DNA from: Nymphaea colorata
Taxonomy: Eukaryota > Streptophyta > Magnoliopsida > Nymphaeales > Nymphaeaceae
Assembly (NCBI RefSeq): GCF_008831285.2
Contig: NC_045151.1
Span: 6,835,682 to 6,899,681, forward strand
Length of the DNA stretch: 64,000 nucleotides
Direction: 5' to 3'
The position numbers and the translations under genes are program-made. Below the pieces are notes generated by a model. It made no database searches. It was not told where the DNA came from and worked only from the letters and a program-made list of their open reading frames with translations. Shown piece by piece: positions 1,859 through 51,320 of this stretch (the first letter of the stretch is position 1; every line of letters begins with the position of its first letter).

Positions 1859-3921
1859 ATAAGGGAAATGTGTTATAAAATAGAATTTTTTTATAATACG
1901 CCCTTTACTTGACTGTACATGGTTCATGGAGTTGAGAATATCTATTAACCATATACCTAAATGTGGTTAAATGAGATGGTTTACAATTTCTCAAGTGATT
2001 TTCTTGAGTATTGACGTTGTTCCCAATTTTGCTTGTCTAACATGTAAATGAATAAGTGAAAGATATTGATGTCTAAAGCACTTATTAATGTTGAAGAATA
2101 AAGAAAGTACAAGGTCATTTTTCTATGTTAAAATAAATTTAACAAAGTCTTTCACCTAAACAAGCAATGAATGGTCAACAGATCATCTTTGAAGATGACA
2201 AAACATATAGGACTGTTTTCTTGCAACATGCTATGTTTACATGTGGATTACTTTGCTATGCATTGTGAATTTGTCTTGTATACATGCATTTCTGGTATTT
2301 TTGAGTGAATTCTTGTATCATTTAAACTATTTTGTCATCTTTGTAGGTCGATGTGCCTTCTCACATTGTTGCCTTTGTGTTGATGACTATAAGCTTCCAC
2401 TCCTGGTTTCATACTTCTAGGAGATGCATTTAATTTGTGTCATCCTTTAATAGGTGGAGGAATGATTATTGTATTATCTAATATATTGTCCTCATAAATC
2501 TTCTTAAGCCTCTTCAAGTTTTGAGTGATGCTTCATCACTTTGCAAGTATTTGGAATCATTTTACACCTTTCATAAAGTATGGGTGATGGTTTGGATGAA
2601 ATAATTTGCGTTTAAGTTGAAATTTTGATCGCACCTCCTATTAATTCAATCAACTACCTTTTTCTTTTTAATTTGTGCCACGTAGAAGTTTTAAAAGCTA
2701 ACAACTTGGTGGAGCCGTTTTACTTGTGTATTTCTATTCCTTAAATTAACTTGTTTGTAGAAGAATTAAATGTTTTGTCTTCAAGGATTAACTTGTTGGT
2801 TTTTCATGGTTGTGCAATTACAAGATATTGCCATTTATGATGATCATGTGAGTTCTGGACAAACTCAATCATTTTATTCTTATCCAACCATTTCTTTCAA
2901 GATTGGAACAATTAGAACATGAGATAAGCCACTAGATAGGTAGTTTTAGATTTTCGGTATTTTATTTGTGTTCCAAGTTTCTAACATGGCCATCACCATA
3001 GCCCTTTCACATTATGTTAACATGTGCCTTAATTCTCTTTTGGAGATGTGTAATTGGTATCTCATAATAATTCATATCATATATTTAAAATGATTGTATA
3101 TTGCATTTGAATCATTTGGGCTGCCAACAGTTGCAACAGCTATCTATTGGTAGTAGGTGCAGCAACAGTTAGCTACTACTACAATAGGGATGTTTTGTGC
3201 TTTATGAAGGGAGTTTTGCCATCATTTGTGAAAAGGTGACCATTTTCTTTACTTCTCTCATCCCAAGCACCAGTGAAAGTGTTCCAATGTGTTCATGGCC
3301 GATGCTAGTTTAACACCAGGAAACTCCTCTCGTGGCTCTTAATAAATGTCGGGAAAGGCCTTTTTTGCTGATTTTGCCTCATTTGAAGGTGAGTCCATAA
3401 CATAATTTTTACTTGTAGGCTTTCCAATCTATTTCATGATTCATGGTCCAGCTTCTTATGATTAGCTGATATGGATGCAAGAGAAATTGATTGTCTCACA
3501 ACTATCTATGGTGAAGGGAAGGACTGCATGTGTTGATAGAGCTAGAAAATTTGGCTGGAGGGGCACTAGTTCGACCTTTCAAGAGAACTTATATATATAA
3601 ATAATCAAATATTTCAAAACAAAAATATAAAAATAAACAAATTTTGTGCCATGTGGATCTGTCACTAACTGCATGGAAAGAGGCTTTAAGGTTGGAAGCT
3701 ACAAAGAAGAAACTGTCTCTTCAACAGCTACAAATCGAGAGAAAGATAGACATCTATGTGTTGCTTGATTGCTTCATAATCTATATGCTTGAGTGTGGAA
3801 CTGATGGTAACGATTTTCATTTTATGCAACAGGGTCCTGCGTAGACGAGTATGGAGTGCTCCAAAGTATAGGAGAGGAGTTTAGCTCTAAACAAGGAGCA
3901 CGTTGTGCAGAAATTGTATTA
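1859..3921. other. AT-rich region without recognisable genes
   Basis: No frame here matches a family that I recognise. A 66-residue frame at 3644-3844 has a lysine- and leucine-rich part (KKKLSLQQLQIERKID) that could be a relic exon, but it has no clear splice sites. Around 3130-3180 there is a short imperfect repeat of CAACAG and TAGCTA motifs. Confidence 0.35.
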
Positions 3922-4503
3922 TGGCATTGAATATTTAGCAGCTAGAGGCCATACAATGTCGATTTGATATGCTTTCATGATTATTTTGTATATCATTTAA
4001 TAAATTGATCCAAGGAGCTGAATTGGCATCTTGATGAACAATTGGTAAATGCACACATTTATTTGTCATGGGATGAACAGCGAGGATGCTATAATTACCT
4101 TGAGAAAGCCTCTAATACTTCACAACAAGTAAGAATTTTCTGTTTAGCTAATCAATGGAAAATGAGATCTATGATTATCCATCAATTGTAATATAAATTT
4201 TTTGTTTGTTTGTATTGTGTCATTGAATATTTAGCAGCTAGAGGCCATACAATGTTCATTTGTTATGCTTCCATTATTGTTTTGTTTATCATTTAATAAA
4301 TTGATCCAGGGAGTTGAATTGGGATCTTGATGAACAATCGGTAAATAGACACATCTATTTGTCATCGTATGAATAGCGAGGATGGTATAATTACCTTGAG
4401 AAAGTCTCTAATTCTTCACAACAAGTAAGCATTTTCTGTTTAGCTAATCAATGGAAAATGATATCTATGATTATCCATCAATTGTAGCATAAACTTTTTG
4501 TTT
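3922..4503 (+). repeat. Tandem duplication of a ~290-base unit containing an exon-like block
   Basis: Two copies (about 3922-4208 and 4219-4503) both start at CATTGAATATTTAGCAGC and end at a TTTTTGTTTG-like stretch. Each contains a block that follows an AG and ends at a GTAAG donor. In copy one it reads ELNWHLDEQLVNAHIYLSWD and continues RGCYNYLEKASNTSQQ without a stop. Copy two reads the same way but has a stop after LSSYE. This looks like a duplicated exon with intron flanks from a gene I do not recognise. Neighbouring exons were not found. Confidence 0.7.
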
Positions 4504-5742
4504 GACTTGTGCATCACCTTTTTGTCATTCAATGTTGATGCTTGAAGATAAGTTTCTTATTTATACTTTGCTCATAGTTGTATAAATCTATTATAATGAT
4601 ATTCATTTGTTGATGTTTGAATGGTTCTAGAATAATTTTCCTTGCCCAAGAAGTACCATAGAGCTTCATTGTTAACTATAGTCACATGCATCAATAGGCA
4701 ATAGGTAAAATCCCCATCTTTAAGTTCCATTACCTAGAAGATGGTGAAAGCTTTGTATTTAAGTTTCACTACTTAAAAGATATAGAATCTATGTTTGAGT
4801 TTTTTATTTCAAAATGTGATAATTAAAATTTCTAGACTCAGATGTGCACTTGTACTAAAATGTGGAAGAATGGGTTTTGAATTTTTATCATGGAATGGAT
4901 GTGTCCAGAACGTTGTATAGATGAGCTTTTAATAATTGGAGGAAACAACTTTGAATTCATCTCTCTATGTGTTGATTTAAAGGACAACAGTTCATGAATA
5001 TCCTGCTGGCAACATCTTTGGCTTCCTAGCTTTGGAATGACATGTCAATCAACAATTGTATGGAAAACCTTGTAATTGTATTTGAAAAAAACATACAATA
5101 GCAAGAGTAAAATTAAAAGTTGATTTCATATTCATGTGAGAGATGTTAGATTACAGCCATGAACCATAACTTAACCATCTTATAATATATGTGAGGTCCC
5201 ACTCATTCGCCATGAAACAAACTTTTGGACGTTTCTAATAAAATGGTGTTAGAAAATAAATTTTCACTAATCTAGAACAAAACCTACCAAGTTTGGTAGG
5301 TGAATCCAAAATGCTAGTTTATGTCTCACTAAACACTTTCTACGAGGCACATGAAGATTGATGCATACAAGCCTTACAAAGTAACCCTTAAAATAAATTC
5401 TAAAAAGTGAAAAGCTTTTTTGTTTAATGCTCTCGCACTTTCTCTTTGATCTCCTTGAGTTGTTGGCGTAGGAGGATTCTTTAAATCAGTAGTCCATCCC
5501 CAACATATCTTTTCCCTTTACTAGTTTGCATGTTCATTTGTGAATGAATGCTTCACTAATTAAATGTGATGAGCTTGTGGTTTCAAAAAAAAATAGTCCT
5601 ATGCATATGGCCTCCACATGCCAAATTTTAAATATTTAGGTTGACAAATATGTTCAACTCTTATTTATTCAACAGGTTTGTCATTCATGTTAGAAACATC
5701 TTCTAATAGCCATTTTTAATCGACATAAGAAGCACATTGTGG
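4504..5742. other. AT-rich non-coding stretch
   Basis: No coding frame, inverted-repeat end or RNA gene could be supported here. Confidence 0.35.
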
Positions 5743-15306: not shown

Positions 15307-15489
15307 CTAGTCTGAATTTTTCTCAGCTGGCCCGCCACTTTCCTTGGGGACTGGTTGAATCCTAACATAAGGTTTTCTAGTCAGTGTTTCACCTCTCAAA
15401 GCAGCCACATACCGATCATTTGTGTCCTCCTTCCGCTGCAACTCCCCCAAAAACTCAGCTAGTCTCTCTTTGTTGGTTTGTCCCATCAT
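15307..15489 (-). CDS. Exon 2 of a small single-pass membrane protein gene
   Basis: This exon encodes the last 60 residues of a 127-residue protein, starting MMGQTNKERLAEFLGELQRK and ending RIQPVPKESGGPAEKNSD, with stop TAG. A perfect acceptor (TTTGTAACTAG) precedes it on the minus strand. It joins exon 1 in phase 0, with no frame problem. The C-terminal half is charged and probably forms an amphipathic helix followed by the tail VAALRGETLTRKPYVRIQP. From memory, plants have a conserved uncharacterised small protein with this tail, so the frame is very likely real. Function is unknown. The uninterrupted, low-redundancy frame contrasts with the decayed elements around it. Confidence 0.85.
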   Translation of the reverse strand: MMGQTNKERLAEFLGELQRKEDTNDRYVAALRGETLTRKPYVRIQPVPKESGGPAEKNSD

Positions 15490-15494
15490 CTAGT

Positions 15495-16490
15495 TACAAA
15501 GTACACAAGACCATCCTCAGTGGAAGCAGAGATGGACGAGGTAATGACAAGTTTCAACCTGACAATATTTTGCTCGAGCAAGAACGTTGATGCAGTCATA
15601 AACAAGCCATGCTCACTACAGGAAACCATGCTCACTAATAGCAAAGTCTGGATGCACATATGAAACCCGAAAACCAGATTATAATTTTTCATGTGCCTTG
15701 AAAAAAATATTTTTCTTACAAAGCAAAAAGGCCATGATTTGGTTGTCATCTTTTCAAAGGGTGGTCATCTTTCCAGAGGCAGGACGTACGATATCTACCT
15801 CTCACCATATAAAGTATCAGATGCACACAAATTTCAGCGACCAATTATAGGAAATCATCGATAAATAGCATGTACTTCAGGGCATTGTGCTTCTAATAGG
15901 GAAGAGAAAACATCGGGACCAATATAACAGAACTGAGAAGAGAAGCATACGTTAACACTTGTCAAATGTCATGCAAAACAGGTTTAGGCTTTAGCAGTTA
16001 GTTAGGGCAATGGAACACCTCAGTAGATTAAATCAGATAGAAAGTGAAACGTTTGATTGCAAACTAACCCTGAAACAACAAGAGAAACCAAAAAGGTGGA
16101 TCAGTCGGACTACTGAAATTGCCGGTTGAGCATAGGTTTGGTTTTGCACGTCAAACGTGAGGGAGAAGACAGAAAGAGTTCCTTATCAAGAACATTAAAG
16201 ATCTAGCACAGTAATCCATGTGTAGTTCATTAGTTCTGCGCATAGATTTCCTAACGACACCATATACCTCGTCTCTTATTCGTGCAGAATTCTTTAGAGG
16301 TGCATCCGCTCCTTTATTATAGTTTTTTCCATTTTTTAGAAATTCATGATGGAAAACTGAGGTGGAAGCAAAAAATTAAGTATACTCTGCAGCATTATAC
16401 CCAATGCATCATCCATGGTAGCTTTATTAAGTCACAAACGGTAAGTCCTCTCGGAATCTCAGATTTTTAGTTAGTGCTCTTATAGGTTGT
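15495..16490. other. Intron sequence without recognised features
   Basis: Lies between exon 2 and the first inserted element. Plus-strand frames at 15384-15663 are shadows of exon 2 and flank. Nothing else was recognised. Confidence 0.4.
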
Positions 16491-16511
16491 TAATTAACAA
16501 CTATGTCACAC

Positions 16512-16538
16512 GGGTACTCCTCTTAAGGAGGAGTACCC
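16512..16538. repeat. 11-base-pair hairpin in the left end of the element
   Basis: GGGTACTCCTC pairs perfectly with GAGGAGTACCC around a 5-base TTAAG loop. It sits just inside the left inverted repeat. Confidence 0.9.
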
Positions 16539-17450
16539 GCACGGTACGGGTACGGTACCGGTACGCCCGTGGGTGTCGCAGGGTGCTGCATTGACCGTAC
16601 TCGTACCAGTACCGGTATGGGTACCGATACGCCCGTGGGTGCCGCAGGGTGCTGCGTTGACCGTACCAGGTACGGTCAACGCACCCAAGGTCATTTTCGA
16701 CCTATTTCAGACTCGGTCAAAGTTGACCGAGTCCATTTCCGTTCAATTTTAATGTTAACCTTTTTTACATTTTCACGTTTTAAAAAATTTAACGTTAAAT
16801 AAATCGAAACCCTAAAACCCTTTTTCGTTTCGTTTCATTTCGTGTGTTTTTTCTTCTCTCACCGACGACCACTGACGGCGCCCGGCGAAGGCAGGGGCGG
16901 AGACCGGCTGCTGCAGGCGACGAACGACAACGTCAGACTATCTTCGGCGATGGCAAGCGCCGAACAGCGATGGTATTTGATTTTTTTCATCGTTTTCTCA
17001 TTTTCTCGTTCATTTTCAAGCGGCAAACAGCAACCTTTTTCTGAATCCTCTTTTTTGTTCGTTGCCTGCAGTCGGTTCCCTTTTTTTCGTTCGTTTTTTT
17101 TTTTCTGTTCTGTGTTTCCTCTTTTCTTTGTCATGTTACTTATGTTAAGCACGTTGTTTGTAATTTTTTGAGCTTCTGCTGTGATTGCCATTGTCTTGTT
17201 TAGTGTAAAACAAGACAATTCTTGGAGGGAAACCGTGTTTAGTTTAAAACAAGTGAATTTTTGCAGTCGGTTCCCTTTTCATTTTTTGTTGAGCAGTATA
17301 TTTTTAGTCGTCTGCAGTCGGTTCCCTTTTTTTTGTTCGTTTTTTTTTTCCTGTTCCGTGTTTGTATGCTAATATATTTGTATGTTAGTTACTTCCATAC
17401 TATGTTTTGGATCATGATTTATGAATATGCTATTCTGTTTGTAGTTTGTA

Positions 17451-17452
<2 letters not shown>

Positions 17453-17539
<87 letters not shown>

Positions 17540-17569
17540 AATATGTAATTTTGTTTGAAATTTCTTGAC

Positions 17570-17622
<53 letters not shown>
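17453..17622. repeat. Two long (TA)n tracts and a (TG)n tract
   Basis: About 66 bases of TA plus 20 of TG (to about 17539) and a second TA run of about 50 bases (17572-17622) lie inside the inverted-repeat element. Open frames across them on both strands are Tyr-Ile repeats and not genes. Confidence 0.97.
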
Positions 17623-17625
<3 letters not shown>

Positions 17626-17754
17626 GCGTGTGCATATGGCCGTACCCCCGCACCCAAATTTTTTGAAAATGGTCCGTACCCGTACCCACACCGGTACCCG
17701 TACCGGCACCCATACCCGTACCCATACCCGTACCTGTGTGACATAGATTAACAA

Positions 17755-19067
17755 CATGAGACACTCGACATGGTTCTAATGCAGTGAGAAATGCAGACTT
17801 TTGCCATCCAAATGGTAACCAGCCTAGACTAAGAACATTTCAATTGAAATTTTCTAATGATCGATACTATGAGCTGCAAATAATTCATGTGCTTGGGGTG
17901 CCAATTCACCACAAAAGTTAATCCCAAGCAAGGAGTCAACAGACAACTTCTACTAAGAAGCCAAGGGTGTGTTCTATGGGGAAATCATCCAGGGTCCCAA
18001 TGTCCTAGATTAACTGACCAGGGTTCCAATCCTTTTCCATGTAAAAATGGAAGTCCACAATGCCAATCTCGGTAGTAATATTTTACCATGTTCTGGACAC
18101 AGCTGTCCAGAGCGGAAAACCATCCACCAAAACAGTTATCTTGCCCATCAAACATGCTCCAACTCATCAAGTTCCATTAGGATGGATCACAGCTTAATCC
18201 AGGGAAAGGGATGGATGATGTACAAAATTGCGAGCAAAAAAAAGCAGTCCAAGTGCATAAGGATGTGTTGACAGGGAAACCAAGTTAATGCAAAAATAAC
18301 GAACTTAACCTGGAGAGGACTAGGAATGGCAGTTTACAAATTAATGAAAAACCTTGCTTTCAGATCTTATAAAGTAATCTCTGAACTATTGAAAAGACTG
18401 CACTATTTTAACTGTATTCACAACCAGTGAAGCTCTAGTGTCTAAAGAGCAAGACAGCATGCAAACTTTGACCCAGTAGAACAAAACATTCAGCTAGAAC
18501 CAAACCTACCATGAATACAATAACCAAGATGCATGGAGACTAGATTAACATTTAAAATTAAAATTCTACACTTGATTCCCTTAAATAATACAGTTAAATA
18601 AACTATTCATACAAATCAATGTGCTGTTTGGTTGCATTGGAGTACGAGGTACACACAGTAAGGAACGAACTTTTCGCATACTTTCTTTTTAATTTCCATT
18701 TGGCAGGATTTCATGTTTGCACGAATTAAAGCCTTCCTGCATGCTTGTTAATTATTCAACACAAATGGCCATATGATACAGAAACTGCATATATCATGCA
18801 AGAACTACATTTTTCCACGCTTCACAGGGCATAAGGTGCTAGAATTAGATAACTTTCCTTGCAGTTTTACATAGAGGTATTGGATACACACAGACCTCTA
18901 ATGTGCAGAAGACTTGATTAGAGAACAAAAAAACGAAATACCAGCACAAATGCTGAACCATGCAGCAGACGGATCAGCCACATTAAGTGGTAAAGGCCAA
19001 TTTGCTTAAGCTACACCACAGCTTGAAATGCAAAACTAGTCCAATTTCTGGAAAAGTAGGCTGTCAC
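17755..19067. other. Intron sequence without recognised features
   Basis: Nothing coding was recognised. A GGGTTCCAATCC stretch near 18022 resembles a tRNA B box but has no tRNA fold around it. Confidence 0.35.
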
Positions 19068-19070
19068 TAA

Positions 19071-20583
19071 GGCCACGTTTGAAGCACAGGGATTTTACTG
19101 TGCATCAGGGTAAAATTGCCGATTTTGTACGGCTTTTCGTGATGCAATCAAACGCAGTAAAAATCTCCTCGCCGAAACCGATGGAGCAGGGTAAATTTAC
19201 CCTGAAAAAAAGTCGGACCCTGGAGGGTCCGACTTTTTACCGTGGATTTTTTTTTTGCCCGTTCGGGCTTTGTCTGTTCTCACGCCGCACGCGATGGAGC
19301 AGCCACCGGCGATTCCACCCTGGCTTCTCCATTTTCATTTTCGCAGTGGACAGCCTGCGAAGTCTCCCTCTCCGCGCAGGGGAACTCACTCTCCGGCGAC
19401 CACTTGCTTTTCCTGCGACAAAAAGTTCTCCTGCAACGTGCGGCTGATCCAGGTGAGGCTCTATTTGTTATGCCCGTGTTAAGATGGGCTGTTTGGGAAC
19501 CCTACCGCCTCTCTTCTTGCTCATCTGGTGAATAGAGGAGGAGTTAAGAGAGAATGAGGAAGGGAGAGAATGAGAGCCAAAGAGAGCGAGAGAGAGAATG
19601 AAAGAGTGAGAAAGGGAGCACGAGAGACGAGGAAGGGGGACGGAAGAGAAGAGGGGGGGATAGAGAGAGAGAGAGGAACGCGAGGAAGAAGAAGGGCACT
19701 AATAGTAATGGTAAAATCGTTTGAGATTTTCAATTTTTTCTTTTAATCGTTAATTTTTCTTTTGGATTAATGGTTTGGGCAATTAGCTTGCCCATCTGAA
19801 TAAAGGAATTCCAGTTTTAACAATTGATGGCATGAGTTTTGTGACCTAGAAAAATTAGTACGTTGGGTAAATTTTGGGGTTTTCCTTTCGATATGAAGAA
19901 AAATTGAGTGATGAGTGTGGGAGAGCCTTGTAACAGTATATGAATCACTCTTTTACTCTGCTGGCTTCGATTACTGCCTGCTCATGTATCTTTTCTGCAA
20001 AACTAAGGAAGCTTCGGTCAGCTTTCAAGGATGGGGGTTCTGTTACTGCTGCATTACTAGCGGATTGTGTTATATGATTTATTCCCAGTAGTTGTGACAT
20101 AGTGTCCAGTTCAAAACATTTGCTGCACATGATGCTTTTAGTTTGAATAATTTTTTCTGATGTTATGGGGAAAAGAATCATCACGATTCTGTGTTTCTGT
20201 GAGGTTTTTTTTTGCTAGCCAAGAAAAACGTAAACTTTATTCTTGTTCTGCTTAGCTTATGTTAGATCTCTCCAGCTTCCCGAACACATTTTCTTCTTAT
20301 TAATGTCAAAATACCAAGTTACCTGCAGGTAGGAGGATTTCTTTTCAGGCTTGTAGTGACAGCAACGATAACAACTTTGATAATGCAACGGTCAATTTTT
20401 TTGTCCATGAAAAAGTTTTCTTGCATACCAAACATTGAATATTTTACCCTTTAAAAAAATTCCAGGCCATCAAACATGGCCTGAAACAAGGAAAAGAAAA
20501 ATTTACCCTCTTTTCAGTTTACCGTGGAGAATTTTCCTTGAAAAAATTTCCCCTCAAAAAAATCCAGGCCATCAAACGTGGCC
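19071..20583. mobile_element. PIF/Harbinger-like non-autonomous element A, 1,513 bases
   Basis: The left end GGCCACGTTTGA and the right end TCAAACGTGGCC are perfect 12-base inverted repeats. TAA flanks both sides (19068-19070 and 20584-20586), the 3-base target duplication of Harbinger/Tourist elements. A second end-like motif (ATCAAACATGGCC) lies about 100 bases inside the right end. The left part has GTCGGACC/GGTCCGAC arms (about 19212-19238) around a short spacer. Coding-like GC-rich sequence follows (about 19256-19460), ending at CCAG/GTGAGG, which resembles a splice donor. No transposase was seen. Confidence 0.85.
19242..19535 (+). other. GC-rich exon-like cargo in element A
   Basis: An open frame of 97 residues, and a second of 75 residues in another frame with CFSCDKKFSC, cover a GC-rich island inside an AT-rich element. 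The island ends in a plausible donor. This could be a captured host 5' exon, as in Pack-type elements. No family was recognised, and the two overlapping frames mean neither can be preferred. Confidence 0.3.
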
Positions 20584-21226
20584 TAAGGTAAGAATTTAAC
20601 ATGGTAAATTTACCATGGTAAATTTTTTTAGAAAAATTTACAGGATGAAATTTCTCTCTCTTCCAATCTGAGGCCCTGTTTGATGCGCAGAAAGAATTTA
20701 ACGTGGTAAATTTAACCATGTTTGATGCACAGGGTAGAAAAATGAAGAGAATTTTTTCAGAACTGTTAGTAGTTGTTTTTTTTTTTTTTCTTCTCCTCCC
20801 CAATAAAAGGAAAGAGCATAAGAGAGTAGATTCGAAACTCGATGCCGTCATGGTGCGACCTAATGGTCAGCCATGAAGTTGGTAATTGGATTCCTAACAT
20901 GACATGCTTTTCCCATCTATTTTTTTACTTCTCTTGATCATATGATATCTCATTCAAACAGCGATTCCTGCTGAAGATACTTATTAGATTTTAACAATAC
21001 AAATTAACTAGATTTTTTATTAGCAGAAAGAAAATAAAAAGGTTCATGTGTTCTTAACTTAACAATTTATGCAATTGTTTCAAGCCGATTCTTCGGAGAA
21101 TTGTTTCGAGCCAATTAATAATTGGTTCTCTACTTATCTGACGATTCCCTCTTTAAGCCACGAATAAGCTGACCTCCTCCTCTTCTCTGCTCTTCTCCGA
21201 GTCATCGGATAAGAAAATCCAAAGGC

Positions 21227-21250
21227 AGAGAGAGAGAGAGAGAGAGAGAG
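21227..21250. repeat. (GA)n microsatellite
   Basis: Twelve GA units lie inside element F, upstream of the coding-like cargo. Confidence 0.95.
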
Positions 21251-21394
21251 CAATCCCTGCTGAGCAGCAGCGGGCTGGCATCTCCTCCAAATTTAGGGGG
21301 TTCCTGCTGCTCCTTCCATGTCCACTCAGGCAAATCCCAATAGTATGCGGATGAGAAGATAGACAGGAAGAGTCTCCCTCTTGCTCTCTTTGCC

Positions 21395-21930
21395 ATGGCG
21401 TCCTCCATTAATGGGCCTTCGGCGCCCCAGTATTCTGTCACCCCAGCAAAGGCATCCCAAGTCTACCAGAACCACCATCTTCAAAACAACCACCACCACC
21501 AGAGCAATTTTCACAACCATCACCAGCACCAGCAAAGCCAACACCAATGGAAAGACCTCCTCATAGAAGCTCGCTCCGAGACCGCCGTCAGCCACCGCCG
21601 CTGCCGCACCTGCCGTGCCCTTACCAGGTACCCACTCGCTTTCCCCGCAATTGCAATCTCTCTCCTCCAGCACCCATCTTGGTTCCGACTTCTGCGGCTG
21701 GAAATCTACCCGATTCGTCTCCAAATTCCACGCCAACCTTCCCCAAGGCCGGCCCCATCAAGCGGAGCTCCTTCGCCGAGCCAGTGTTGGAGCAGATTTG
21801 CGGCCAGGAGAGCGTTGAGGAGGTGTTGGGGCTCTGGGATTTTAAGCTCGCGGTGCCAGAGGACTATTTTGGGGAAGATGGGCGTGAGAGGGAAAAGATC
21901 GAGCGGGTGAAATTTCACCCACTCGATTAA
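21395..21930 (+). other. Coding-like cargo of element F, possibly a captured host exon
   Basis: A plus-strand frame starts MASSINGPSAPQYSV after CCATGG, a good plant start context. It continues through a Gln/His-rich stretch to WKDLLIEARSETAVSHRR. A donor-like CAG/GTACCC lies at about 21629. The downstream frame (21547-21930) contains VEEVLGLWDFKLAVPEDYFG, which looks like real protein, and then runs into the element end. The interior differs from the related element at 32011, which has pyrimidine-rich sequence at this place. I do not recognise the source gene. Capture of a host fragment is an inference. Confidence 0.4.
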
Positions 21931-22053
21931 AGGAAAAACGGGTGAAATTTCACGCCGTTTGATACATCGTGAGATGGGCGGGTGAAATTTTACCCGTCCG
22001 TACAGATTTCACCCGCTTTTCTCATTTTGCCCGGGCAATCAAACGGGCCCTAA

Positions 22054-24240
22054 ACAACCAGGTTTGGACTTTCTATAGTTTTTAGAACCCATACATAGGG
22101 GAAAAAAATGAAAAGGAAAAGAACTACAACTAATAACACTTCACAAATCTTATGGAAAAATCATCTTTCTGAGACATCGTTTTAAAAAATCTAATGTAAG
22201 AACCATGAGGAACTTTGTTTTAAGAGTGTAACAGATTACATGCTAATGTTATTCACAGAAATCATAAAACACATTCACATACACATCACTTAAATAAGTA
22301 ATCATGACATAAAAAAGGGATTCACAGCATTTTGAAGGTCAACCATACTTTAAGCGAAAAGCAACTCTCCTTAGGACGTAATACGACCTCAGAGCATTTC
22401 AAACGTTCACAAAAATGTACAATTAAAAACATATAACTACTAAATGAGAAAAAAGGTGAAAAATAAGGTAAATTTAAAAAAAATAAAAAAATCTTAAAAA
22501 ATTAGGGAAAATAAAATAAACGACAAACCTTTAAGACAACATCAAAATAACAAGTAGATAAGCAACAAATAAAAATTACAAAATGGAAACAAGCAGCTTG
22601 GCATTAAAAAAATGTGAAAAAAAATATATCAAGTAAAAAAAGGGGGAAATGTGTTTTTCCATTTTGTTGTTTTTTTCCAAAAAAACGGCGTTTTTTGCCA
22701 CTTTTTTCAGCTGACTCATTTTTTGTGTTTTCAATGTGTTTTCTGTGACTATGATTTAATGTAACCAGAATTGGAAGATTTCTAGAAGGTGTTCATAACA
22801 ATTATATATTATTCCTGAGTTTGACACTCCTCTTTTGCTTGGCACTGAAACACTATGACAGTTGTTGTTTGTCCCAACACCTTAGGTCTAGACAGTAGGT
22901 CCTTTTAAAAGTTAAAACTCATGGTCGAAGGAGTCAACTTGCACTCTAGGAACCTTACCACCACCTGGCTCTCTCAAGCAGGAATACCCTTGATCCAGTA
23001 AAGTGCACGTGCATTGGATGCAAAGGTCAACATTACTATTTAATTTATATGTTCATAATTCTAAAGCATAGATTATGCAGATCACTCACAAATATTCATT
23101 ATGCAATGTTTCCACGCACAAGTGTAACTTTTAATAGCCTTATTTACAAGCCTTATAGCAGTATGATATAGCAAAAGAAAATCACGGAAAGTGGAAACCA
23201 AGTGATCTGAATGGCTTAATCTATGCAACCAAGGCATCTTTTTGGTGTACCATAACATACTCCTAGAGGAGGTATCCCACTTTCCGACATTGTTAGTACC
23301 TATGTTGTCAAAAGCACCAGATGTAACCTAGATGATAATTTGAGCACAAAGCCTGGGGGGACTACATAGACCTAAGCAGCATTGGGTGGTCCACGAAGGT
23401 GGGGTGGGGGGACGAAACTAACAAAGCGTATATCAAAGGTGAAGATTAACAACAAAACTGAAGCATTTGTAAATGAAAAGCATATGGCTATCAACTTACA
23501 AGTCAAAAACTAAAATACAGATGAAACTAATATCAAATTTAGTTCATAACATGATAATAAAACATAATTATATAAATCAACACATTTAGGAAACAGGATT
23601 ATTTATCAAAAAGCTCCTCAATGTTCATAAGAGCAAGTTTAGGTATACTAATATTTTAATATTTTAAGTATTTGCAGTTTAATGTGTATGCACACACATT
23701 ACATACTAATACATATCAAATATCAAATATGTGTAAAGATTATGAAAAATAATTGGAAGGCCTAATGCATATAGCCATAAATTGCATAAAGAATGAGAAG
23801 AAAAAGGAAAAAAAAAATCTAAAAATTGGAAGAAGAAAGGAAAAGGAAGAAAAAGGATTTATAAAGTGTAAAAGGCTAAAAGCTATATTGTAAATGGTGC
23901 GCCTAGGTGGGCCTGGGCATGCCAGGTAGTGTTCATTGCCTAGGATGAATTGGTCTAGGCAATGAGTACTGAAAGCGCAGGCCATCACCTGGGCTCACCT
24001 AGGCAAATTCATGTCAAAAGCCTATGTTATAGGCTTTTTATTATCCTAATCCTCCTGCCATTATCCATGGGAGGCCTTTACTTGCATAAGCGCCCCATGC
24101 AATGCATATAGGGGCATGTGGATGTCATGGAATTCCTATGACCAAACGCTGGCCATGGCAATCCATGACACACACATATATAATGTTATTATATGTTAAT
24201 GACTTGTGAGTAACTTATATGTTATATATGTATGCGTATA
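22054..24240. other. AT-rich intron sequence
   Basis: No coding frame or element boundary was recognised except the inverted repeat at 23901-24004. The 82-residue minus frame at 23740-23988 is low complexity. Confidence 0.35.
23901..24004. repeat. Short inverted-repeat element with GCCTAGGTG ends
   Basis: GCCTAGGTGGGCC at the left pairs with GGGCTCACCTAGGC at the right, with one mismatch over the first dozen bases. A second nested pair, TGCCTAGG and GTCTAGGCA, lies between. It could fold into a cruciform and may be the core of a small MITE. No target duplication was found. Confidence 0.55.
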
Positions 24241-24246
24241 TGATAC

Positions 24247-24462
24247 TGTTAGATATCGAATATGGGATCACAGGCCGGGCCAATTGGACGGACCTGATAA
24301 CCTCCATAAGTAAGGTCAGTAAGGCCAGATTAGTGTTGATCGCAGCTTTGAGAGCGTCTTACCTCTAGGAGGAAGAAGCCCTAATCTGGGATGAGGGTGT
24401 GGGTGTCCGTTTGTCATCTTGGGTTTTCTTGTAAAGGGTTGGTGAGTTAGCAGGGGCTAACA
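24247..24462 (+). repeat. Short LTR with TGTTAG/CTAACA ends
   Basis: It is 216 bases long and abuts a primer-site-like sequence. That length is within the range of TRIM-type elements and far shorter than the 553-base Copia LTR nearby. Confidence 0.6.
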
Positions 24463-26490
24463 AGGTATCAAAGCGTTGGGAAGACGACGGCAGCCATAGC
24501 AGACAAAGTCACGGCTCGAGAGTCTGTGGCAGCTGTGGATGCCTATCGCGTGCACATGGAAAAGGAGATAGGAGCAGCGGATGGAAGAATTCAGAAACTT
24601 GAGCAACGGATGGAGGGCATTGATGTTAGACTCAACGCGATCTTCACAGGGAAATAAGCTCTAGTGATGCTGCTGCGAGAAGCTCTTCATCAAAGTAACC
24701 TTCAAACCTCAAGTACTAGAGACTAGAGAGTGTCGATCGTAGAAGATGGAGAGTACAATTGCAAGGATTGACCAAAAACGAGATGGCGTAAATGAGATGT
24801 GGGAGACTATGATAGCATAATACAGGCGGACGCATCTGATGCTAGAAGAGTTTTTAGATGGCAAATCTGAAGAAGATGCTCCAAGTGTTGGGTCAAAAAT
24901 TGTGCTCGTAGGCAACACTAGAAGGAAACATCGCGCAGTTCAGAAGGATGAAGTCACTGTTCTTCCACTTCGAGTCTTGCCACAACGGACGATTGATCGT
25001 GTAGACAAGCACCAAATCAGAGACGATAACAAGAATGTTGAAGCTAGAGGCGAGTTCTCAAGAGATGTAGACGAAACAGATGGTGACTCTCCAGTCCCAT
25101 TCCACTCTAAGAGAGCAATCCTCTGCCATCGCGATAAACAGGGTATGCAATGGAAACCTCCATGGATACACCATATGACCTCAATGCCATCTAAATCAGA
25201 GGGGGGGTAGCCTACATCGTTGTTCACATATCGGCAACTATGGGACCTGCAAACGACTAGACATTCAAGAGGCAAGTGGGCTAGAAGCGAGCGATTCTTC
25301 ATCCAAAGTCCAGCACAGCAGGCGGAGGAGGATACCCGAGATTGGGATAATGGGCAGGTGACGCAACCAGGGAAGCCCCCATGGTTACTTAACGACGATA
25401 TTGACATTCTCCGACTATAGGGTTTCATTGATGAACTCATTCGGGTCCCACATAGTCATGGTCCTGCATCATGTTAGTGGTCACAAGGCCCACGAGGGAT
25501 GTTACGCCATCCCCCACACTTGATTCCTAATAGCAGTGAGCAACCAATAAGGTTCACCTGGCTCTCAAAGGAGGAAACCCTAGATGTCGTCAACAAGATT
25601 ACTCCCTATTGGGAATCCAGAATCTTGTTTTGCATGAAGGCAAATGCAATGGGGAAAGGGAGGAAGGGTCGAGCAAAAGCCCTCCTGGTTGGAAGCCATG
25701 GAACCACGAGTGATGTGGCCTCTTACATCAAGAACAGCTAAGAATTTCAAGAAGGAACGCACACAAGGGGAAAAGGGACTTTTGGAATCAAGTAGGAAGG
25801 TGGATAACATCCCTCCGTTGTGAGGCTTCACGACCCTACAAGATGGGCTATAAGAAGAAGTTCTCACATCTGATGAGACAGATCAAGAGGGGGCAGAAGT
25901 TTGTCCTCCACCTCTTACTTGGAGAGAGCGGGAAGCTACTTGCATGTGCAACTAAGGTGCTGGAGCAATGTTTGCTGATGTAGGGGCAGTTAAAGGTGTG
26001 TTACTTTGCTAGGTCCTTCAATATTCAGGTACAATAAAAAGATTGCTTCCACTGAACATTATGGAAACAGGGAGTTTAACTTTAATATGATCAATAAAGA
26101 AGGGGCAAGAGGAAAGGATTCTCTTCCTCTTGCTTGCTCTAAGGAAGAAACCGGAAAAGTGAGAGAGCTTGCAAAGAATCAAACCCAAGGCAGAAAATCA
26201 ACAGAGTTTTAGTTGATAGGTTCAAACAGTGGCCATGTTTTCTGCTTCTATTTGCTCCAAAGTGCATATATACTACACATGGATGCCCAAAAAATGGGTG
26301 CACCTATACTCTGTCAGACGCAAAACCATGGGGTACTCAAGAGCTTAGAATGACACTAATAATGAGTCACCCAATAACACAGAGGTAAAAATTGGAAGGG
26401 AAAATGAACCTCATCTGGGTTTTGGAATTAACATTGTTCTAGTGACCATTATTGAAAATGTTCCTAGTGATACCATGGAAGAGATAGATA
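24247..26490 (+). mobile_element. Short-LTR retroelement, 5' part only
   Basis: A 216-base LTR (24247-24462) begins TGTTAG and ends CTAACA, perfect 6-base inverted ends. It is followed immediately by AGGTATCAAAGCG, close to the tRNA-Met primer site. Next comes a coiled-coil-like stretch (HMEKEIGAADGRIQKLEQRM) as at the N terminus of many gag proteins, then fragmented frames at 24839-25210, 25220-25420 and 25499-25741 with no recognised protease, reverse transcriptase or integrase. No 3' LTR was found. The right limit is a guess. Other frames on the minus strand here are shadows. Confidence 0.6.
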
Positions 26491-26494
26491 CTAT

Positions 26495-28090
26495 TTTAGC
26501 TCATGAAGAGGCATCACGTGAAACCAAGAAGGTTGGAACCTGTTCGGCAGACTATGAGGGACCTCTGTTTAGGTGGGAATGCTGCGTTAAGCCAGCCAGC
26601 TAGCTGCATACTGAGACCCATGATCAGCTTGTTTGTAGCATTAAATGGAATTTTTGTGTGGCTGCAATCGGAGACCTGCTTGAAGGTGAGAGAGACAGGG
26701 TGCTGAATGCGATGGATATCACTTGTCGAGATCATATTGAACACTATTATATTATGTTATTATAAGTTGATTGATTTCACAAAAAAAGGTTTGATTTGTT
26801 TGTGGAATGTAAACATTTAATGTTGCAATTTATTAGTTTTATCTTCTTGTTGTACCTAGTTCTGCCTACATACAAACCAATACCGAGGGGCTCTGCCTAA
26901 TGCTTTTAACAACATTGTGTACAAGAAGAGGAAAAAAGACAAGATAACATAAGAGGGAAAAAAGAAAGGAAAAGAGCAAAAACATGGAAGAAAAAAGGGA
27001 CAGTAATGAAAAAAGGCAGAAAGGAAAAGGGAAAGAACCAAAACACATAAGAAGAAAAAAAAAATGCAAGTCAAACTTTTTAATTCTTTTAGTCAAAATG
27101 CCTCGGTTGCCTTTAACCTTGGTAGTCCTAGACAACTAAGCAACAGTTGGCTTGGGAGACTAACTGCACCTTTCACAACATCGGTTCGGAAAGAGAATGA
27201 TTCAAGCAAGCCTTTGACTCAACTAAATTTTGGAAATGCCCAAAGATATTCCAGAGTGTCTAAGGTTTTCCATGAATCTTCCCATTCATTTCTCCTATAC
27301 CTGACGTAGCATATGATGAAAAAAATTGTTTCACTCATCCATCATCTTCTTCATTTTGTTTTGAAAAGCTCCTGACATTTAGTTCTTCCTCTATAAGGCA
27401 AATAACCAATTCATTGAAGTGTTTGTAGTCTGTGCCAGAAAGATTCTTGCCCTTCTGGTCTTTGAAGGCTATGCAACTTGGACCCTTAAAGCCTCAACAG
27501 TAAAAACGTATAATTGTGCTACCAAGCTGTTTAGGTCAGCCATAGGATGAAAGCAAAGCTACATGCAGCATTCTCAGATATTAAATCTTGGAACCCTCTT
27601 TTTCCATTTTTCTCATTTTAAGTTTTCAATGGACTTGAGTCTGGCTACACCTGATTGGACATTCTTCCAAAATTACTATCCTCATTCTTTTTTGCACTAA
27701 AAGCAAATTTTACAAGCCCCACTAGATCAGCAATAAGCAATAAATTTTATTAGAAAAAATAGAGGATGGAGGGAGTCCCCAATTTTCTCTATCCACAAAA
27801 AGAAAACAAAGGCTAGTGGACTGGAAGACAATAATTTCCAACACCACAAAATAGCCATCACATATTGTTGATTGTTTAACCAACAACATGTGAATGTCGA
27901 TGAAACTTTGCAACAATCAACCATGATCAATAGGTGAAAATAGCAAAAAGTTACCAATCAATCAACTGGATTCATCAGTAACATAAGTTTAACCCAAATA
28001 AATCAACTACCCATCTATAAACTGCCACCAAAATCACTAATTAAACTAGACTGGGATTTACAATGTTAAAAGCGATGGAGCCTGCAACGC
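26495..28090. other. Intron sequence without recognised features
   Basis: Purine-rich low-complexity runs occur around 26920-27065. The lysine- or phenylalanine-rich frames across them are not genes. Confidence 0.35.
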
Positions 28091-28199
28091 AAAGTTAACA
28101 CCAACCCAAGACCAACAGCAACATAATAATAATAATCTCAGCCATGATCATAGCAACGAAAAATGAAAGTGGGAAAGAAGGAGAAAGGAGGGACAGTAC

Positions 28200-28400
28200 A
28201 AGAGATTCGGGTCGAGCTGTCTTCCTCAGTTGGGCCTCCAACTGCTCATTGCGGGAGCTGGTGAGTTGCATGATGCCGTAGCCAATGACCGCGGGGACGA
28301 CACCGCAGGCCATCGCGAAGGAGAAGAAGAAGGGCTTCGATTCGCGCGTTCTCCGAACGAGCCACCGCCACGTCGCGCTCTTCTCCCAGAGGAACGACAT
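28200..28400 (-). CDS. Exon 1 of a small single-pass membrane protein gene
   Basis: This exon encodes residues 1-67, starting MSFLWEKSATWRWLVRRTRE. The ATG at 28400 was chosen because the 11 codons upstream in frame are a GA-rich low-complexity run that resembles 5' leader. Residues about 23-45 form one hydrophobic segment (FFFSFAMACGVVPAVIGYGI) preceded by arginines, which suggests one membrane span with the basic N terminus on the cytosol or matrix side. The exon ends ARPESL at a GTACTG donor, in phase 0 with exon 2. Organelle location is plausible given the short arginine-rich start, but unproven. Frames on the plus strand here are shadows. Confidence 0.85.
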
Positions 28401-32010: not shown

Positions 32011-34598
32011 GGGCCCGTTTGATTGTCTGGTGAAATTTGAAGGAGGGGATGAAATCTATATGGACGGGTGAAATTTCACCCGCCCGTCTCACGCTGTACC
32101 AAACTGCGTGAAATTTCACCCGCCCGTCTCACGCTGTACCAAACGGCGTGAAATTTCACCCATTTTTCGTTAAAGCAAGCGGGTGAAATTTCACCCGCTC
32201 GATTTTTTCCATCTCACGCCCATTTTCCCCTCTTTTCCCTCTTCGTCGACGGCCTTCTTCCCCTTTCCTCTCTCGCTCGCTGCCTCACCTCTCTCGCTGC
32301 CTCACCTCTCTCGCTCTCTCGTTCCTCTCCTCTCTCGCTGCCTTTCCTCTCTCGCTGTTCTTTCTTCTCTCGCTCTATCGGTCCTCTCTTCTCTTGTTGT
32401 TATCTTGCTCTCTCCTTCCTCTCCTCTCTCGCTCTCTTGTTCCTCCTCTCTTTTCCCGACGTCGCCTGCTTGCAGCAACAAGTGAGTCCATGATCTTGTC
32501 GCTCTCTCACACGCTTGTTGGTGAAAACCCATCTCTCCTTTAACTGTTTTGTATTCACAGGCCTTCTTCTGCAACATGAGATCTGGGTTAATCCCTCTTC
32601 GCTGCTCCTTCATTCAGGTATGCCTCTCACAACCGACAAATTAGCTCTGCTCCTCCCTCTCTTCTTTCCTTTCTCTTCTGCAACAGGGGGATATCCTAAA
32701 CAACATGTATGATTTTTTTTTTAACTGTTAGTTCTCTGTTTTGCTAATTTGCTGCATATGTTTTGCTAAACAACATGGTTCCATGCATTAAGACCACCAA
32801 AACCATGTTTGGAATATCTTAGACTGATGCTGTGCATGGAAGATCAGAGGCTTTTTAGATAAGCCACACATGACACAACCATGTTTGGAATTTGTGCGTG
32901 TGCCCAACATTCTTCCTCAGTTGTCATAGATGACAAGTCAATAATATATATTTGGTGTTTTCCTGCTGGTTATTTAAGGTTTTTATGTATTACAATTGTG
33001 CATTTTTTTAGCTGCTATCCAAGTTTTTAGTTCTTGTTCGTAAAATGCAAACTTGTATCCTGTACAAAGTGCTCATTTTATGTTAATGTTTTGAGGTGCT
33101 TTTACATGATTATGTTCTATTATTCTTCAAACTTCTGTTTTTCTTGTATCGTGCTGATAACACCTTTTTCTTCTTGTTTAATATAGTCATTGTTCACCAG
33201 CATCGAAGGAGGTAGAAAGTGTCTTGTTAACAATAGAAAAGGTAATTTCCTTTAACTTTTGCTTTGTTTCTTGATTTCTTTAGCTTCTCTTGCTTATCAG
33301 TGGAGAAATACCAAGTTCTGTTTTCTTTCGTAAGACACAGTGATCTTTGTGATGCTAACTTCATGCTACTTGGTGTTCTATTTCGCAATATATATTTGGT
33401 GTTATGTTTTCTTTTCTGTAAACTTGGCACTGAGATGGATTTACCTGATCTTAGCTTTTCAGTGATGCAACACATTTAATGAATGTATCTTACATTATCC
33501 AGAGCAGTCATGTCGAATTGAAGTTAACATATCCACTTTATGCTACTTCAACATGTTGTAAAGTCTACTTTGGGCTAATTTCTTAATGTAGAGTATGTTG
33601 TTATTAGATGTTTTTGATCTCTGAGCATAAACTTTCATCATCTGAAAGGAACTGCTTGTGAACCTGTTATGCCCCAAATACTCCACATGTTTTTGGAGAT
33701 TATGATTGTAAATTGATGCAACATCTGCTTAGAGTTGCAGAGTACTTATAACTATTGTATGGAATAAAGGAATGTGTTTATGCCAACAGGAGCTCTGCCC
33801 ACCTGAATAAGACAACTCAAAACTTCCAAGTTGAAGGATAACCAATAATGTGCTAAGAAACTCCACGTCTTCATGGATTTCTAACACTGTCACATTATGG
33901 AATCTTTCTCCCCAAAAACGTTTGTTGTAAAGTTAATGGCTTTCCATTCAAAATTTGTCTTTTGCTGTCAACTTATAGAGTTAGTTCCCAATATGTGTAT
34001 CTTTTACTGTAAAAAATGGAGTTTACTCTTGATTTTGTACCACCGGCTTCCTGTGGTCACTTGCCTTCCTATTTTCTAATTTTTTTAACATTTGAGCCTG
34101 CCATGTATGGTTCCAAAGTCCCCTTTTTTCTATGTTTATGGTTGCATTCTTCATGTAGCATGCATGAACTACTAGGAGATTCACTATATAATGTATTGCA
34201 TCATACATTGTACAAAACAACTGTTCTTCATGCTAGATTTCATCAACTATATTGCATTGTTTGATGTCATGCTTTTAATTGTGTTATTTTTTCTTTTACA
34301 TAAAATTGTTGTTGGTACCCTGTGCGTCTTGTTGTTTTCTGGATGGTAGGGAATACACCCTCAACATTTTGTTGTTTTGGAAGATGATCTACCCTGTGCA
34401 TCAAACAAGGTTAAATTTACCACGTAAAATTCTTCATGTGCATCAAACATGGTTAAACTTACCATGTTAAATTCTTCCTGTGCATCAAATAGAGCCTCAG
34501 ATTAGAAGGAGGAGAAATTTCATCCTGTAAATTTTTTCAAAAAAATTTACCATGGTAAATTTACCACGTTAAATTCTTCTTGTGCATCAAACGGGCCC
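32011..34598. mobile_element. PIF/Harbinger-like element D, 2,588 bases
   Basis: The ends GGGCCCGTTTGAT and ATCAAACGGGCCC are perfect 13-base inverted repeats. TTA flanks both sides (32008-32010 and 34599-34601). The left 170 bases contain four GGTGAAATTT-type blocks, mostly as palindromic GGTGAAATTTCACC, and two copies of CCGTCTCACGCTGTACCAAA. Next comes a pyrimidine-rich tract with CTCTCGCTG repeats (about 32250-32460), then splice-like junctions (CAACAAGTGAGT, TTCACAGGCC, TTCAGGTATG). The right end carries tandem copies of the terminal motif. No transposase was seen. Confidence 0.88.
34395..34592. repeat. Four copies of the terminal motif at the right end of element D
   Basis: TGTGCATCAAAC (last base varies once) occurs at 34395, 34437, 34479 and 34581. 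The last three copies follow AAATTCTTC. The first three are spaced 42 bases apart. Only the last is the true terminus, so the end sequence has been amplified inward. Confidence 0.85.
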
Positions 34599-47163: not shown

Positions 47164-48031
47164 CTCGCTTAGACTACTAGATTTGGTGAAATTTCACCCA
47201 AAAAAAAGTCAGACCATGGGGCCTAACCTTTTAACAATGATTATTTTTTCTGCCCATTAGGGCTTCGTCCGGATGCTCTCTCTCACTGCCACTTCTCTTC
47301 CTCAGCGTACCTTCTTCAGCAGCACCATTCGGTAACTTCATTAGCGCCATCCAGGTAACAAATTCAGCATTCATGAATCTCACTCCAGTTATCCAGGTAA
47401 CAACTCCAACTTCTTCATGAATCTGTCTCCCTCTCACCCTTTCTCTACAGATGACTGGATACATTTCATTTGTGTGCTTCTCTTGGTTATCAAGGACCAA
47501 TTGTGGGGTTTTTTTTTTTGTTATCAATGGTATAAGTTATATACTTGTAGCTGCTTTTAGGGTATTTATTGTGAGTCTTGGTTGTTGGTTTTTTTACTTT
47601 TGGGAAGATTGTTTGATGATTCTTGTAAGAAATGGATTTTAAAAAGATGTTTGTTGGGTCCTCGTTCTGGAGCTCCTGAGAGGTCAAAGTTTTTGAGCTC
47701 CCATTGTGTGAAATTTTCATGGTTGAAAATTCACTTGTGGATTTGAAACAAGAGACATTTTGTTGCATGTCTGCACCTACTTGTTGTTGTTCATGTTGCT
47801 CTCCTTCCAAGTATGCATCATCTTCTTCATCTGGTATAGTTGAAGCAGCCCAAGATGGTATGACGTTAACCCCATGTACAAGGAGCTTCTTTCAACCAGT
47901 GGAGATATCAATCAAGAACCATTTCCTTCTTGAAAACCATAGCTAGTTTGTTGATTTTACCAAAACAAAATCAATCAAGCTGGTTCATTGATTTTTTTGT
48001 AAACAACAATGTCGTTGGGCTGTATGAGCAA
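47164..48031. mobile_element. Harbinger-like copy C, truncated
   Basis: It starts at CTCGCTTAGACTACTAG and runs to ATGAGCAA, matching 48323-49156 throughout. It keeps AAGTCAGACC and CTGCCCATTAGGGCTTCGTC, which match AAGTCGGACC and TTGCCCGTTCGGGCTTTGTC of element A. Both termini are missing. Two CAG/GTAACA junctions resemble splice donors. Confidence 0.7.
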
Positions 48032-48220
48032 TAAGGCTGGTCATCGGGCCGGGCCAAGGTGGCCCAAAGCTCAACAAATTCAGGCTTGGGCTGGCTCGAA
48101 GCCTTTGTTGGCAGCCCGATCCCAACGCACTTAGTTATCAGGCCAAGGCCCGATCGTCAACTTTATACCCCTTGGGTACCCAGTTCGGTGTCCACCGATA
48201 TTTGAAACTCTTAATATTTC
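48032..48220. mobile_element. Partial hAT-like MITE inserted at the end of copy C
   Basis: The left end TAAGGCTGGTCATCGGG matches the MITE at 5751. The interior has GGCCGGGCC and GGCTTGGGC. No matching right end was found before the next element. Confidence 0.5.
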
Positions 48221-48231
48221 TTATTTTAATA

Positions 48232-49374
48232 GGGAATGTTTAATGCATAGGAAAATTACTGTGCATCATAGGAAAGATACCTTGTATGGATTATCTGTGC
48301 ATCATCAAACACCAAAAAAATCCTCGCTTAGACTACTAGATTTGGTGAAATTCCACCCCTACATTTTTAACAATGATTTTTTTTTTCTGCCCACTAGGGC
48401 TTAGTCTAGATGCTCTCTCTCTCTCTCTGCCTCTTCTCTTCCTCAGCGTACCTTCTTCAGCAGCACCATCCGGATAACAACTCCAGCATTCACAAATCTC
48501 ACTCCCATTTTCCAAGTAACAACTCCAGCTCCTTCATGAATCTCTCTTATTCTGACCCTTTCTCTATCTCTCAGATGAATAGATAGATTTTGTTTGTGTG
48601 TTTCTCTTGGTTATCAAGGATCAAAATTTTGTGGTTTTTTTTTTGTTATCAATGGTATAAATTATATACATGTAGTTGCTTTTAAGGTATTTCTTGTGAG
48701 TCATGGTTGTTGGTTTTTTTTACTTCCGGGAAGCTTGTTTGCTCATTCTCATAAGAAACAGATTTCAAGAAGATGGTTGTTGGGTCCTCGTTCTGGAGCT
48801 CCTAAAAGATCAAAGTTTCTGAGCTCTCATTGTGTGAAATTTTCATGGTTGAGCATTCACTTGTGGATTTGAAACAAAAGGCATTTCGTTGCATGTCTGC
48901 ACCAATTTGTTGTTGTTCATGTTGCTCTCCTTCCAGGTATGCATCATCTTTTTTGTCTGGTGTAGTTGAAGCAGCCCAGGATGGACCCCATGTTCAAGGA
49001 GGCTCTTTCAACCAGTGGGGATATCAATCAAGAACCAATTCTTTCCTGAAAACAACATCTAGTTTGTTGATTTTACCAAAAACAAAATCAATCAACCTGG
49101 TTCATTGATTTTTTTTGTAAACAACAACATTGTCATTGGGATGTATGAGCAATGATAGCCCAAATATACCATGCGGCCATATAAGCAATGATCCATAAAT
49201 TTATCCACGGTTAACAAACTGTGAAGTTTTTTTTCTTAAGAAAAAAAAATGCAGGCCATCAAACATGGCCTGGATTTGTCAAAAATTAAATTATTCCAGC
49301 TAGACTTTTTTCCTACATTTTTTTTCCCTAGAAATTTTACCATGCAAAATACTTCCTCTCAATCAAACACAGCC
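48232..49374. mobile_element. Harbinger-like copy B, relative of element A
   Basis: The left end GGGAATGTTTAATGCATAGG and following TACTGTGCATCA align with the start of element A. The right end CAATCAAACACAGCC is followed by TAA (49375-49377), with a second internal end-like motif GGCCATCAAACATGGCC at about 49255. The interior from 48323 repeats copy C. The left TAA is not adjacent to the end, so the boundary there is worn. The frames at 48594-49108 match those of copy C and are probably non-coding. Confidence 0.65.

Positions 49375-50411: not shown

Positions 50412-50495
<84 letters not shown>
50395..50495. repeat. (AAAT)n(TA)n(GA)n compound microsatellite
   Basis: Five to six AAAT units, then TA to 50470, then GA to 50495. 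On the minus strand this directly follows the LINE 3' end, so the (CT)n part is probably the LINE tail and the rest grew from it. Frames over it are repeats, not genes. Confidence 0.95.
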
Positions 50496-51320
50496 CCAAT
50501 AAAATGGGAAGGCATAACAAAATTTGGGAAGAAGAAGTCTTATAGATGCAAGAACAAACCGCAAACAAAATGGAAGAAGGAAATATACAAGACAACTACA
50601 CAATAAAACATAATAAGAGGAGTTGAGAGAGTGGATAAAGGGAGCGGTAGATCACCCAGCAACAAACAGAAGATGGTGTCATAGCTGAATAGCAAAGTGG
50701 ACATCTCTCTGCACAAGGCGTGCCATAGAATCCAGCGATGAGAAGGTGTCCCTGAAGACCCTATTGTTGTGCTCCTTCCAAATGCACTACAAAGAAGATA
50801 TGAGCCACAACCTCCAAACACGACCCCAAGAAAAGGGTATGTGGGGGAAGGACAAAAGAGGAGAAGAAGGTGAATGGAGGGCGGGTCTGGAAGGCTACTA
50901 ACAAATAAATGTCATACAGAGGCAGGAACACATTAAAAAAAAGGGCATGAGGTAAAAAGGTGAACCCGAGACTCAGCCACAACGAGACAGATGAGACATT
51001 GGTTAGCTAAACTAATGCTAATGCACTATAAGTGGTCAAATGTATTGATGCGACTAGCAAGAAGAAGCCAGACAAAAATAATGGCTTGAGGAGAGGGGTC
51101 AGGAGACCAAAGGGACCGTTGTGGGAGCATCGCAGTGGAAGAACCAAAGGAAGCCAGGTAGCAAGAAGAAAAAGTAAAACCATGTGAAGGCGAAGGAGGC
51201 CAAGATGGGGGGCGAGCGATGGGAGGTCAACAAGGTAGAGGAAAAGCGGAAGGTAGAAAGCAGGCTGCACCAAAAGTACGAGGGAGAAGTGCGAGAGATG
51301 GAAATATTCCAATCACTAGG
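50496..51320 (-). mobile_element. 5'-truncated LINE copy, minus strand
   Basis: On the minus strand the translated pieces (HIFFVVHLEGAQQ, SGTPSHRWILWHALCREM, SYDTIFCLLLGDLPLP) match the 3' end of the plus-strand LINE at 57570-57900 (SGAPSHR, SYDTIFHFLLSD). It covers the zinc-finger-like C-terminal region of ORF2 and the 3' UTR, ending GGCTCTCTCTCTC like the other copy. 5' truncation is the usual result of incomplete target-primed reverse transcription. Confidence 0.82.

Follow-up and report, generated by a model that had tools for sequence, protein, structure and literature searches.

A conserved small membrane-protein gene of the water lily Nymphaea colorata with a 12.7-kb intron carrying mobile elements

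The stretch of DNA analysed here, hereafter called the window, comprises 64,000 nucleotides of the Nymphaea colorata genome (contig NC_045151.1, positions 6,835,682 to 6,899,681 of the forward strand), and positions are counted from its first nucleotide. On the minus strand, two coding exons flank a long intron and join in phase 0 to one frame of 384 bp with 127 codons and zero internal stops (Table 1). Recomputation reproduced exactly the exon coordinates and the phase-0 join to a 127-codon frame that had been proposed in an initial annotation made from the sequence. The gene structure described here is that of the coding sequence alone.

Table 1. Coding exons, intron, and mobile elements within and near the intron (positions in the window).
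Feature	Position	Strand	Description
Exon 1, coding part	28400-28200	minus	201 bp, 67 codons, residues 1-67; ATG at 28400
Exon 1, content	28200..28400	minus	basic N-terminus and membrane span
Intron	28199-15490	minus	12,710 bp, phase 0, GT...AG
Exon 2, coding part	15489-15307	minus	60 codons and TAG, residues 68-127, conserved tail
MULE-like element	16502-17746	no strand	inverted ends (C)TATGTCACAC; ATTAACAAC on either side as a direct repeat of 9 bp
PIF/Harbinger-like element	19071-20583	no strand	ends GGCCACGTTTGA, TAA on either side
Second PIF/Harbinger-like element	20587-22050 (left limit approximate)		truncated on the left; ATCAAACGGGCCC as right end, then TAA
LTR-like stretch	24247-24462	plus	starts with TGTTAG, ends with CTAACA
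LTR/gag-like remnant	24247-24660	plus	LTR-like part, then primer-binding-site-like AGGTATCAAAGC and start of a gag-like frame
Complete PIF/Harbinger-like element outside the intron	32011-34598	minus	2.6 kb, GGGCCCGTTTGAT ends, TAA on both sides

For the identification of homologues, the 127-residue product was compared with 5.8 billion proteins, which yielded 417 matches at E <= 1e-3, the best of them with an E value of 3e-64 (Telopea, 83% identity). The best 120 of the 417 matches were listed; they showed 71-85% identity and covered 87-100% of the product, and every organism named among these 120 is a flowering plant, some rows being nameless. Residues 61-75, which span the splice junction, formed one ungapped block in 119 of these best 120 matches, the sole exception among those listed being a maize protein (P0078) with an insertion exactly at the junction. 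The protein search that had been suggested in the initial annotation was thereby carried out, and both halves were found in one protein across the plant homologues; homologues with the two halves in separate genes were not present among the matches seen. Also, some of the junction-spanning homologues sit on contigs of 604-1334 bases, as would be expected of spliced transcripts. Because of this homology, with 417 proteins and a best E value of 3e-64, a chance join of the two exons is excluded.

In an alignment of 120 homologues, 65 columns, which is about half of the protein, were conserved to at least 95%, and the window protein carries the majority residue at 63 of these 65 columns, departing from it only by A37 and I43. 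The earlier claim of an intact coding part is borne out by this agreement and by the open frame. The locus is a real gene for a conserved small membrane protein of a flowering-plant family, with one copy in the genome. Labels on the homologues read 'centrosomal protein', 'transmembrane protein' and 'like AT1G79390', and by the label on one homologue (P0038, Hibiscus) the product is the orthologue of Arabidopsis AT1G79390. The AT1G79390-like family is widespread in flowering plants. The window gene resembles this family in the degree of identity stated above for the best 120 of 417 matches, in full-length similarity across the splice junction, in the membrane span, in the tail, and in the position and phase of the intron (phase 0, after residue 67). 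It differs in A37 and I43, which depart from the majority residue at two of the 65 highly conserved columns, and the intron length of 12.7 kb is a figure for the window gene only.

With respect to the protein itself, a single membrane span had been claimed, and the hydropathy profile agrees with this, showing a peak of 1.84 at residues 25-43. The net charge is +4 before the span and +1 just after it. We guess, tentatively and with somewhat less than even confidence, that the protein resides in the membrane of an organelle or in another internal membrane, the basic N-terminus facing inwards. The tail, which had been noted as looking conserved, corresponds to the family consensus RGETLTRKPYVRIQP (26 sequences). 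The statement that no function could be named also stood, as nothing significant came out of the searches by sequence, profile or fold. Compared with Pfam, the product had no match above threshold and one below it (E 0.2), and the 26 family members together hit nine families (best E 0.019), none of which occurred in more than 6 of the 26 and none of which was convincing. Sequence and profile searches of the PDB gave nothing significant; NDUFA13 came up with two chains at E 0.8-0.9 in the sequence search and at 0.14-0.17 in the profile search, 0.14 being the best profile value, and was rejected as not significant. Structure prediction with AlphaFold for P0001, the Telopea homologue, gave a weak model (mean pLDDT 70.7, pTM 0.30), and a fold search with this model returned no significant match (best E 7.8), be it to NDUFA13 or to any other fold. 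A resemblance to complex III assembly factors (UQCC3, BRAWNIN) was considered and dropped, as no signal was obtained. In the comparison with the UQCC3/Cbp4 group, represented by one UQCC3 sequence, hhalign returned a probability of 0.17% and a score of 10.8, which 145 of 200 shuffles attained. A literature search by the gene number At1g79390 found no paper in the collection searched, and among the papers listed for complex III assembly, UQCC3 or CBP4 and Arabidopsis, the titles and abstract starts contained nothing on the protein.

The splice sites had been described as consensus sites. This holds for the GT-AG termini of the intron, but the donor is weak: CTT/GTACTG agrees with the donor consensus MAG/GTRAGT at only 4/9 positions. 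The interval 28400-27401 holds 62 GT dinucleotides, this donor counted in, of which 41 score equally well or better. Therefore, the splice sites are fixed by homology and not by their own score. The acceptor reads TAACTAG/ATG with 65% pyrimidines upstream. The weak donor and the distance of 12.7 kb would also fit two separate genes whose exons are joined only because the frame permits it; this reading is practically refuted and keeps a negligible probability, as the homologues hold both halves in one protein and as the two exons align with a common protein at one locus, on the same strand and in the right order. For the two-exon gene, we infer from sequence comparison that splicing across the 12.7-kb intron takes place in N. 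colorata and is tolerated there, as initially proposed, in which case the long intron would be transcribed through and excised by normal U2-type splicing.

For the age of the intron position, a second search was performed with a 66-residue query across the junction, for which the best 120 of 241 matches were listed. By a length rule, this search was confined to short proteins (about 36-115 residues; up to 119 among those listed). A gymnosperm protein (P0138, Cryptomeria) covers 98% of this query. Among the best 120 of the 241 matches, 41 spanned the junction, 47 covered exon 1 only, 29 covered exon 2 only, and 3 were of another kind. In 45 of the 47 exon-1-only frames among these best 120, the homology ends at residues 66-69. 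Residue 68 is V, as encoded by GTN when the donor is read in frame, in 28 of the 47 exon-1-only frames, V being missing in 19, and Q, as encoded by the CAG of an acceptor, stands immediately before exon 2 in 24 of the 29 exon-2-only frames and is missing in 5. Some of the frames lacking the V or Q mark may represent gene models that continue differently. The one-exon matches as a whole would be reading frames that stem from the genomic DNA of other plants or from their gene models. Since the exon-1-only frames break at the junction and the V and Q marks are found beside it, the intron position is old, and the frames show the same phase-0 intron after residue 67 in many of these plants.

At least four mobile elements had been counted in the intron, and this number is reasonable. 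Two of the four stand firmly, showing a target duplication as well as both ends; the other two are weaker, one having one clear end and, some 10 kb off in the window, a relative that is complete, and the other being an LTR/gag-like remnant. A 9-bp target duplication is made by MULEs, and a TAA-type 3-bp (TWA) duplication by PIF/Harbinger elements; the family names used here were assigned by such rules on ends and duplications. The MULE-like element combines a 9-bp target duplication with terminal inverted repeats and contains AT and GTAC-rich simple repeats. Stretches resembling it (77-88% identity, 42-186 bp) were present in 2 of 20 sampled 10-kb pieces of the genome; this 200-kb sample, about 0.05% of the genome, contained three matches, all of them to 17423-17725 of the element. 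For the MULE-like element, the three plus frames gave no Pfam match, and the single minus frame covered gave none to a transposase.

The first PIF/Harbinger-like element has matching ends and a 3-bp TWA target duplication, and it contains an extra end-like sequence (at 20481); the frames scanned showed no transposase domain. The second one retains its right end and the adjacent TAA, its left end being truncated. It has both end regions in common with the complete element outside the intron, in the same order and on opposite strands; the interiors of the two do not match each other, that of the intron copy being GC-rich. Inside the second element lies a GC-rich gene-like stretch (21395-21910), possibly a captured gene fragment, for which no Pfam match was found in the one frame tested. 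In the LTR/gag-like remnant, the LTR-like stretch is followed by AGGTATCAAAGC, which we take to be tRNA-Met primer-site-like, and by a presumably gag-like frame, after whose start the frames are broken. Since no second copy of the LTR-like stretch was found within the 64-kb window, it is described only as an LTR/gag-like remnant, and the four intron frames scanned contained no Pfam match supporting the gag and primer-site reading. In these four of the six intron frames (three plus, one minus), Pfam revealed no transposase or polymerase domains, the only signal being a sub-threshold one to DUF7859 (E 0.025). Much of the intron length would consist of insertions of DNA transposons and retroelements that took place later than the fixing of the intron position.

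Further repeats were observed elsewhere in the window. Another PIF/Harbinger-like end (GGCCATGTTTGATGGCCTG) is located at 49270 on the minus strand. A LINE-like remnant at 55651-57312 has a match to the reverse transcriptase family RVT_1 at 56941-57312 (E 7.9e-8), whereas its endonuclease match at 55651-55968 is weak and stays below the cut-off (E 0.0068). A Copia-like gag-pre-integrase domain was detected at 63329-63841 (E 3.7e-14). In addition, a direct repeat of about 0.85 kb with 82% identity (47164-48032 and 48323-49153), an inverted pair of about 550 bp with 77% identity (50471-51023 and 57375-57918), and a 296-bp unit duplicated in tandem with about 91% identity (3914-4504) are present. 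Rfam gave nothing at gathering scores over the 64-kb window.

For the analysis of copy number, the product was compared with its own assembly (407,766,735 bases, 783 contigs). Three candidates were scored, and the 2 matches at E <= 1 were the two exons described here; the gene is single-copy, this being the only copy found in the genome. A correct water-lily gene model would be expected first in the product search. No protein named for Nymphaea or Victoria was found among the best 120 of 417 or the best 120 of 241 matches, and proteins of both genera are present in the same protein database: a PPR frame of this genome has 96% identity to a Nymphaea thermarum protein there and 85% to a Victoria cruziana one. 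The gene may therefore be absent from water-lily protein sets, and this absence probably is an annotation gap, likely caused by a failure of gene prediction to bridge the intron.

The same lack of water-lily proteins among the listed matches, the 4/9 donor and the 12.7-kb intron with its several insertions could also be expected of a decaying gene, in which the exons persist but a poor donor and an intron full of repeats no longer permit efficient splicing. We consider this very unlikely, as the frame is intact, nearly all of the highly conserved columns are retained, no replacement copy was found in the genome, and a long intron on which gene prediction fails explains the lack of annotation equally well. 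Because the gene is single-copy and departs from the majority in only two of the 65 conserved columns, an intact gene with an intron filled by mobile elements is the best reading. Taken as a whole, the locus is very probably an ordinary nuclear protein-coding gene of the water lily that contains mobile elements in its intron.

Transcripts ending early in the intron were considered as well. Beyond the donor, the exon-1 frame runs on for 34 codons without a stop, over an intron stretch rich in hydrophobic residues, and an AATAAA is located about 450 bases into the intron. Reading through from exon 1 would give a protein of 101 residues that has a second hydrophobic stretch but lacks the conserved tail, so that the gene could have two products or a regulated switch. 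For Arabidopsis, proximal polyadenylation at intronic heterochromatin has been described (PMC7472560). On the other side, AATAAA is common by chance, and the exon-1-only frames of other plants run into unrelated residues, i.e. the extension is not conserved. Early ending of many transcripts appears unlikely, but it is compatible with the intact two-exon gene and not exclusive of it.

According to the same study, the Arabidopsis ASI1-AIPP1-EDM2 complex supports full-length transcripts over silenced intronic repeats (IBM1 and others; PMC7472560). The genes handled by this complex resemble the window gene in having mobile elements within the intron of an expressed gene, expression of the window gene being assumed here, and the resemblance is one of architecture only. 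Under the favoured reading as an intact two-exon gene, formation of the full-length mRNA may, by analogy, need read-through of silenced repeats. A silencing-dependent switch in water lilies, in which 127 residues would be made when the elements are read through and otherwise an early end would lead to the 101-residue form with the second hydrophobic segment replacing the tail, is a more distant prospect still, and we regard it as improbable.

Long introns filled with mobile elements are documented in plants, including Chloranthus and magnoliids (PMC8626473). As described there, mobile elements have extended these introns, like that of the window gene, with little difference in coding length; LTR elements are named in that study as the main contributor (PMC8626473), whereas the best-defined insertions in the window intron are DNA-transposon-like. 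Since the intron position is old and such introns are documented, the long intron is less special than the initial annotation implied. A long intron laden with mobile elements is ordinary for plants and not a new kind of system. The AT1G79390-like family merits functional study, since about half of its columns are conserved to at least 95% and the searches made here assigned it no function. This strongly conserved small gene provides a clean example from an early-diverging flowering plant of an intron position that is widely shared while the intron collects DNA transposons, and long introns of this kind may hide conserved genes from annotation and from counts of gene loss.
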